A DNA stretch of 21,037 nt from a virus: positions 1 to 21,037 of IMG/VR virus record IMGVR_UViG_3300023116_000440; one strand, given 5' to 3'. The position numbers and the translations under genes are program-made. The notes beneath the pieces are model-generated. The model did not search any database, had not been told where the DNA came from, and saw only the letters and a list, made by a program, of their open reading frames with translations. Positions 103 to 21,022 of this stretch are shown here, in pieces (the first letter of the stretch is position 1; each line of letters opens with the position of its first letter).

Positions 103-183
103 ATGGCACGGGAGACACGACCCCCTTCCGTGCCATTTACATTATGTTGGGTCATTCAAAGTACACAAAGTTAACAAAGTAAA
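103..183 (+). promoter_or_regulatory. Structured gp32 leader: candidate pseudoknot plus three 9-base repeats
   Basis: A perfect 9-bp stem pairs ATGGCACGG (103-111) with CCGTGCCAT (128-136). Loop bases GACCC (119-123) can pair with GGGTC (149-153), giving an H-type pseudoknot with loops of 7, 4 and 12 bases. After it come three CAAAGT repeats at 157, 166 and 175, exactly nine bases apart and ending at the ATG, in a stretch with no obvious structure and no clear Shine-Dalgarno sequence. T4 gene 32 mRNA is repressed by its own protein through a leader pseudoknot followed by cooperative binding to an unstructured region over the start; this leader has the same arrangement. The function is inferred. 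Confidence 0.65.
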
Positions 184-19726: not shown

Positions 19727-19921
19727 ATGAAACAAACCGAAGTAGCAGGCGTTGTCATTGACATTTGTAGTCGCTCATTTCTTTTGATTTCTGATGAGGG
19801 TGATGCCAAGCACATCCAAGCAGACACTCCAGATGAGTTTATTGCTATTCTAGCAGCTATCGACAACAAAATGCCTGAAGAACAAATTGAGTATGCTGAA
19901 CTTGCCCTTACTACTGATTAA
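19727..19921 (+). CDS. Small acidic protein, unknown function
   Basis: 64 aa from ATG 19727. I choose this over the GTG at 19706 because AAGGG lies six bases before it and because 19706 would be upstream of the expected transcript start. The sequence MKQTEVAGVVIDICSRSFLL is strand-like, then SDEGDAKHIQADTPDEFIAI forms a turn and helix, ending in an acidic tail. It looks like a small compact alpha/beta domain. Its stop overlaps the next start (TAATG). First gene of a promoter-led trio; no family recognised. Confidence 0.7.
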   Translation: MKQTEVAGVVIDICSRSFLLISDEGDAKHIQADTPDEFIAILAAIDNKMPEEQIEYAELALTTD

Positions 19922-20109
19922 TGGAAGTATTTACTGTTGAAGAATATTCGGAACGTTTTGACGAACTGACAAAACGAGTTGAAGAAGGCGAAATCATTGG
20001 TATTGTTACAGAAGATGGCAAAGCAGCAGTAATGGTGCCTGCTGAACTGTATAATGATACCGTAGACTTCATTGACCTCCATACAAAAGAAAACAACGAA
20101 GCACCCTAA
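19921..20109 (+). CDS. Phd/YefM-type antitoxin-like protein
   Basis: 62 aa. The first 45 residues follow the Phd/YefM antitoxin pattern: FTVEEYSERFDELTKRVEEG, then EIIGIVTEDGKAAVMVPAEL. In this family the N-terminal strand-helix-strand unit binds DNA as a dimer and the C-terminal tail wraps the toxin. Here the tail (residues 46-62) is short (DTVDFIDLHTKENNEAP). No partner of the RelE, Doc, YoeB or PIN kind is visible next to it; both neighbours are acidic. It may act as an orphan antitoxin against a host toxin, or only as a repressor of its own operon. Overlaps both neighbours by one base (TAATG). Confidence 0.65.
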   Translation: MEVFTVEEYSERFDELTKRVEEGEIIGIVTEDGKAAVMVPAELYNDTVDFIDLHTKENNEAP

Positions 20110-20409: not shown

Positions 20410-20432
20410 GGTGTATGTATCTATTCATAACC

Positions 20433-20852
20433 ATGATTACTTGTAAGTCTTGTGGTAAAGAAGTTCCACAAAGTCCCCGTAAAGGTGGGCGAGCAAAACT
20501 CTATTGTAACGAAAGTTGCCGTAACAAATGGCGTTATGAAAATGACCCATCTGTAGCAAATAGAAACACTTACACAGAGCAAAAATCAAGAGGTTATTCT
20601 AACAAATGGAAAGCACTTGAATACAAAGGTGGCAAGTGTCAAACCTGTGGAGAAAGTAGACCAGCAACTCTATGTTTTCATCATAGAGACCCATCCCAAA
20701 AAGAGTTAAAACTTGATGGGAGAAGTTTTGCTAATCGCAAATGGGATACAATCAAAGCAGAGGTTGATAAATGTGACCTTCTTTGCCACAACTGCCATCA
20801 TGTGCTACACTATGGAGGTAGTTGGGAAGAGTTCCTAAACGAGCAGGTTTAG
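20433..20852 (+). CDS. HNH endonuclease with N-terminal zinc finger
   Basis: 139 aa from ATG 20433; ATG 20415 would add six residues but lies at the expected transcript start. The N-terminus is a zinc-binding unit (C4, C7, C25, C29: MITCKSCGK, YCNESCRNKW). A linker leads to an HNH domain with C69-x2-C72 (CQTCGES), H83-H84 (CFHHRDP) and LLCHNCHHVLHY (C118, N120, C121, H122, H123). This is a homing-type DNA endonuclease often found beside phage tRNA genes. Its last ten bases, including the stop, form the 5' acceptor strand and U8 of the tRNA gene that follows. Target site unknown. Confidence 0.85.
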   Translation: MITCKSCGKEVPQSPRKGGRAKLYCNESCRNKWRYENDPSVANRNTYTEQKSRGYSNKWKALEYKGGKCQTCGESRPATLCFHHRDPSQKELKLDGRSFANRKWDTIKAEVDKCDLLCHNCHHVLHYGGSWEEFLNEQV

Positions 20853-20915
20853 CTCTCTGGTGAAAGCACTGTCCTCATAAGACAAGATAGGTGGGTTCGA
20901 TCCCCTCAACCTGCA
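20843..20915 (+). tRNA. tRNA with CAU anticodon (Met, or Ile after modification)
   Basis: 73 bases with a perfect 7-bp acceptor stem (GCAGGTT/AACCTGC) and A73. The anticodon loop is CTCATAA, giving CAU. The T-loop is TTCGATC and the D-loop holds GG. Weak points are mismatches at 27:43 (C-A), 50:64 (U-U) and 13:22 (C-A), and U instead of A at 14. CCA is not encoded. It overlaps the end of the HNH gene by ten bases. Most likely functional, but a decayed copy is possible. Confidence 0.75.
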
Positions 20916-20935
20916 CTCCCCTCAAGGAGCACCTA

Positions 20936-21018
20936 GGAGGATTGGCAGAGCGGTTAATGCAGCGGTTTGCTAAACCGTGAGGGTAACACCTCCGTTGGTT
21001 CGAATCCAACATCCTCCG
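20936..21018 (+). tRNA. tRNA-Ser (GCU)
   Basis: 83 bases. The acceptor stem GGAGGAT/ATCCTCC is perfect, with G73. The anticodon stem is GCGGT/ACCGT around TTGCTAA, so the anticodon is GCU (reads AGC/AGU). A long variable arm (GAGGGTAACACCTC) confirms the serine class, and the T-arm GTTGG/CCAAC encloses TTCGAAT. CCA is not encoded. It starts 20 bases after the preceding tRNA. Confidence 0.93.
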
Positions 21019-21022
21019 CTTC

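Follow-up and report, generated by a model that had tools for sequence, protein, structure and literature searches.

The leader of gene 32 in the cyanophage-like virus analysed here raises the question of how a protein that binds single strands may recognise its own message. In T4, gp32 acts as a repressor of its own mRNA: it nucleates on a pseudoknot and from there spreads along an unstructured stretch with UUAAA repeats, both parts being needed (PMC535899, PMC3014915). How gp32 singles out this mRNA among other single strands is described as unclear for T4 (PMC535899), and a review asks that autocontrol by gp32 be studied across diverse relatives of T4 (PMC3014915). The first-pass annotation of the window (the whole stretch that was analysed, 21,037 nucleotides of the IMG/VR virus record IMGVR_UViG_3300023116_000440) had proposed that the T4 design is used in this leader with a different sequence. 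Here we surveyed the leader, its close relatives and the gp32 leaders of other T4-like viruses, and we consider with moderate confidence that it is a gp32 translational operator of T4-like build and unrelated sequence, gp32 being the probable ligand.

The gene at 184–1083 (gp32 and the leader features described below are all on the + strand) encodes a single-stranded DNA-binding protein of 299 amino acids with its ATG at 184, and it was rightly named gp32 from the letters alone, as it matches phrog_224 (E=3e-87) and PF08804 (E=3.6e-39; 135 bits against a cut-off of 26.8). The region 5′ of gp32 was read in contig L001, the leader of which is identical to that of the window; genes for a gp33-like late-transcription coactivator and a DUF1825-family protein lie there in the arrangement seen in cyanophages, and the DUF1825 ORF (PF08855) is complete at 1047–1388 of L001. 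The stop codon TGA of this upstream gene is at 69–71 of the window (frame GAG GGT TGA), inside the −35 hexamer of a sigma-70 promoter. This promoter, TTGACA-17-TATAAT at 68–96 (−35 at 68–73, −10 at 91–96), agrees with the consensus at 12 of 12 positions, and from its spacing transcription is predicted to start at about 103, which would place the stem and knot described below at the 5′ end of the mRNA. No intrinsic terminator (a G+C-rich hairpin with a run of T after it) was found in 1–1400. At the other end of the window, tRNA-Met (cat) and tRNA-Ser (gct) were found within 20843–21019, the start of tRNA-Met overlapping the end of an ORF at 20415–20852 that has HNH-like cysteine/histidine motifs by eye and no Pfam match; a small ORF at 19921–20109 resembles a Phd/YefM antitoxin below the Pfam cut-off, with no obvious toxin partner adjacent to it.

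The leader begins with a perfect 9-bp stem, ATGGCACGG at 103–111 and CCGTGCCAT at 128–136, and the loop pentamer GACCC (119–123) is complementary to GGGTC (149–153), both as first described. The stem (S1) is longer than the nine pairs given at that time: G112-U127, A113-U126 and G114-C125 extend it to 12 pairs including one G-U, so that its 5′ arm ATGGCACGGGAG (103–114), at the predicted mRNA 5′ end, pairs with the 3′ arm CTTCCGTGCCAT (125–136), and the hairpin has an energy of −19.3 kcal/mol. The 10-nt loop contains GACCC, and pairing of this loop strand with the downstream strand (S2) would give connecting segments of 4, 1 and 12 nt, which by their geometry an H-type pseudoknot can accommodate. 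A stem of at least 9 bp together with a 5-bp knot arose in 21 of 20,000 dinucleotide shuffles of 103–183. The plain minimum free energy of the larger region has a z-score of only −0.95, and thermodynamic stability alone would therefore have missed this leader. Searches of the leader against Rfam, at relaxed and gathering thresholds, and a DNA similarity search against known phages gave no match.

Between the putative knot and the start codon three CAAAGT units lie at 157–162, 166–171 and 175–180, in the exact 9-base steps that had been noted; the array had been said to end at the ATG and in fact stops 3 nt short of it. These units stand in a largely unpaired stretch (154–183, mean P(unpaired) 0.67–0.68) over the ribosome-binding region, in which T4-type UUAAA/UAAA repeats were not found. 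The leader has no Shine-Dalgarno sequence of GGAG/GAGG type, in agreement with the earlier reading. An equally spaced triple 6-mer occurred in 1 of 20,000 dinucleotide shuffles of 103–183, and the score for three such units gave P=0.0015 for the window leader. The combined observation of stem, knot and repeats exceeds chance.

A protein scan of IMG/VR, taken over its full listing, placed four contigs with three distinct leaders in the clade of the window, and pattern scans with the CAAAGT triple and with GACCCC...TGGGTC returned mostly chance matches, with no extra member of the clade among the matches listed. The gp32 proteins of L003 and L004 are about 80% identical to that of the window, and both contigs retain the promoter as TTGAC(G/C)-17-TATACT, the stem, GACCC/GGGTC and the three CAAAGT units. 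Knot and repeats are thus conserved in relatives, where absence of the repeats had been named as grounds for refutation; the exact 9-base step is a property of the window, the steps in the clade being 9/9 or, in L003 and L004, 9/10. Shine-Dalgarno sequences are missing from the leaders of the clade. Compensatory changes in both stems had been suggested as a check on the fold. In S1 of L003 and L004 one such change is present (C109-G130 to U-A). GACCC/GGGTC is invariant among the three distinct leaders of the clade and the covariation test of 119–123/149–153 is therefore silent there; covariation of S2 appears only with more distant phages.

These more distant phages (L267–L279, S-PM2, S-CAM1 and related phages) carry GGCAC..GTGCC-type stems with loops that pair with the leader start, and their S2 pairings are TTGTCCC/GGGACAA, TGACCC/GGGTCA, GACTCCCA/TGGGAGTT, TGACTCG/CGAGTCA and TGACGC/GCGTCA. 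When S2 partners were swapped among 18 phages, own partners scored 13.3 and swapped partners 11.07 (sd 0.51; P=1e-4). Pairs were counted over 16 distinct homologous regions aligned in blocks, with blocks and register set by hand; L185, which lacks S1, and L195, in which a G run is ambiguous, were left out. In this hand-blocked alignment 97.7% of S1 and 90.2% of S2 positions are paired, double changes occupy 22 cells where shuffles give 5.7, and covariation is 0.343 where shuffles give 0.132, with 0 of 500 shuffles reaching the observed value; the signal was lost in all slid versions of the alignment. A blind knot search, which uses no hand alignment, reached p≤0.05 in 24% of 111 distinct regions. 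In the clade of the window (L001, L003, L004) as in S-CAM1, S-PM2, L187, L194, L195, L213, L243, L251, L267, L277 and L279 it recovered the same S1/S2 at matching distances. Judged from these alignments, S1 and S2 probably form a covarying pseudoknot upstream of the gp32 start codon.

The position of the promoter differs within this group. In S-PM2-like phages the −35 box lies inside the S1 loop and S2 overlaps it, joining it to the leader start; mRNA started at this promoter does not include the 5′ half of the knot, so only read-through RNA from upstream genes could fold the knot. In the clade of the window the promoter is further upstream and the old −35 box in the loop looks decayed (ACGACC, GAGACC), from which we infer that the knot may now be part of the main gp32 mRNA. 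Most cyanophage gp32 leaders have the repeats without the knot. Small hairpins at the predicted 5′ end, just past the −10 box, were seen in L006, L008, L190, L198, L252 and L255, in the same place with other letters (GTGAC/GTCAC, TGGTTG/CAACCA, GTGTT/AACAC, GTGGT/ACCAC), and the S2 strand may have in them another partner to pair with.

The repeats were followed more widely by self-match analysis of the 50 nt that precede the gp32 ATG, in representatives less than 70% identical. The 54 cyanophage leaders gave a self-match peak at lag 9 (z=7.7) and also at lag 10 (z=3.2), and 27 leaders of distant T4-like viruses of IMG/VR gave a peak at lag 10 (z=5.6); the leaders of the other S-PM2 and Syn1 genes tested had only a codon-like period of 3, with no peak at 9 or 10. 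The three-unit score (steps of 8–11) was significant at p<0.05 in 39% of cyanophage leaders, in 22% of the distant leaders and, among 11 gp32 leaders of cultured phages other than cyanophages, in 18%; among 94 control leaders the share was 1%. The arrays end near the ATG (median 11 nt), and their units include CAAAGT (window), ACATCC (S-CAM1), AATCC, AATAC, AACGAA (L335), ATAACA (L287) and AAAATA (L309). Near-perfect tandem units of 9–10 nt were seen in the last 60 nt before the gp32 ATG of the distant T4-like viruses L287, L291, L309, L335, L338 and L340, among them ATAACATACG, AAAATACATC, ACGAAGTCA and ATAGAACAGA.

Evenly spaced repeats with different letters thus stand before many T4-like gp32 genes, and what is conserved therefore seems to be the spacing of the repeats rather than their sequence. 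The unit class has changed at least 20 times on the gp32 tree. Within leaders the units tend to agree: among 52 leaders with at least two ATCC/ATAC units 41 were homogeneous, against 17.6 (sd 3.0) when units were dealt at random, a figure inflated by shared ancestry. For concerted change of units only three phylogenetically independent pairs were usable, which gives no power.

The same stem and repeats can also be read without any autoregulation by gp32, the 5′ hairpin or knot mainly protecting the mRNA from 5′-end-dependent decay by way of RNase E and pyrophosphohydrolase, with the A-rich repeats as an unstructured ribosome landing site independent of a Shine-Dalgarno sequence. A stem at +1 is the usual location of a 5′ stabiliser, and the 12-bp stem sits at the predicted +1; the missing Shine-Dalgarno sequences in the clade would suit a landing site, and many other cyanophage gp32 leaders also begin with short 5′ hairpins of varying sequence. 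Yet neither function requires covariation of S2 or a 9–10 nt phase with matched units, and the phase is missing from the leaders of other genes; we regard this explanation as unlikely. Slightly less likely still is that the inverted and direct repeats work at the DNA level, as operators bound by a transcription factor that acts on the gp32 promoter, steps of 9–11 bp keeping its sites on one helix face. The S-PM2-like phages lend themselves to such a reading, with S1 flanking the −35 box and S2 linking it to the leader start, but G-U pairs, which only RNA reads as pairs, occur in both S1 and S2 and therefore favour RNA over a DNA operator; moreover the arms differ by single compensatory changes with no one recognisable site kept, and the repeats lie between promoter and ATG, ending near the ATG under different upstream promoters. 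That the repeats are bound by a different translational repressor of the phage such as RegA, with gp32 as just one target, is improbable. The sites of RegA are unstructured, A+U-rich and close to start codons (PMC3014915), as in the window leader, but RegA controls many genes, and phased repeats did not turn up in front of the other S-PM2 and Syn1 genes that were tested.

The operator reading that we favour would work in the following way. The promoter at 68–96 would give an mRNA beginning at about 103, of which the first 50 nt or so would fold as an H-type pseudoknot (S1 103–114/125–136, S2 119–123/149–153), and from the knot to the AUG a mostly unpaired A-rich stretch would run with its three phased CAAAGT units. 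When gp32 is in excess over the available single-stranded DNA, one gp32 would nucleate at the knot, and more gp32 molecules would then align on the repeats, cover the start region and block ribosomes, each repeat unit possibly accepting one gp32 monomer. For the T4 design with a different sequence, as it had been put, speak the identity of the gene, the layout, its conservation, the phased repeats and the covariation of both stems in the wider group; against it weigh the invariance of S2 among the three leaders of the window's own clade, the restriction of the knot to read-through RNA in S-PM2-like phages and the lack of a knot in most cyanophage leaders.

We further propose, tentatively, that the repeats act as a ruler: the units would change freely and together while the 9–10 nt step is kept, setting the register of gp32 monomers on the RNA as a sequence-assisted lattice, and in one cyanophage lineage a promoter shift would have brought a knot that was once confined to read-through RNA into the main mRNA. 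If this is true, the lattice would explain how gp32, a "non-specific" binder of single strands, can find its own mRNA. A phase that is kept across unrelated units and absent before other genes offers a direct test of step against unit sequence. It had also been suggested that the 9-base step reflects the gp32 site size, which is unproven and was not adopted. T4 gp32 occludes 7 nt (PMC7826291, PMC10484735) and the repeat units of T4 itself follow one another at 5 nt (L342), so a step that is 9–10 nt in relatives and about 10 nt in distant viruses is not simply equated with site size. The step may correspond to how monomers are spaced along the RNA or may serve something else.

A limited literature search in open-licence papers found no phased repeats or knot described for cyanophage gp32, and the known systems that come nearest are the gene 32 operators of T4-related phages. 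In T4/T2, as in the window, a structured element upstream of the gp32 gene is followed by an unstructured, repeat-bearing stretch over the start region. In T4 more than 40 nt of unstructured sequence follow the knot on its 3′ side, and the knot of the window spans −81 to −31, a similar layout, but there is no evident sequence similarity, the units being UUAAA/UAAA in T4 and CAAAGT here. The T4 knot is about 28 nt, whereas that of the window is about 51 nt with its 12-bp S1; the T4 leader combines the 5-nt step with a Shine-Dalgarno sequence, and the window leader has a 9-nt step and none. In T4 the segG reading frame and the 5′ part of the knot overlap (PMC535899), whereas the knot of the window starts at the predicted +1. 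The RB69 gene 32 operator, backed by probing and gp32 footprinting (PMC535899), likewise shares a knot and an unstructured stretch with the window, although its sequence is close to T4 and unrelated to the window leader. The upstream regions of gp32 in S-PM2/S-CAM1-like phages, as described above, are also close in kind, having homologous, covarying S1 and S2 together with phased repeats; they differ in the −35 box within the S1 loop, in a promoter-proximal mRNA without the knot, and in units of AATCC or ACATCC instead of CAAAGT.
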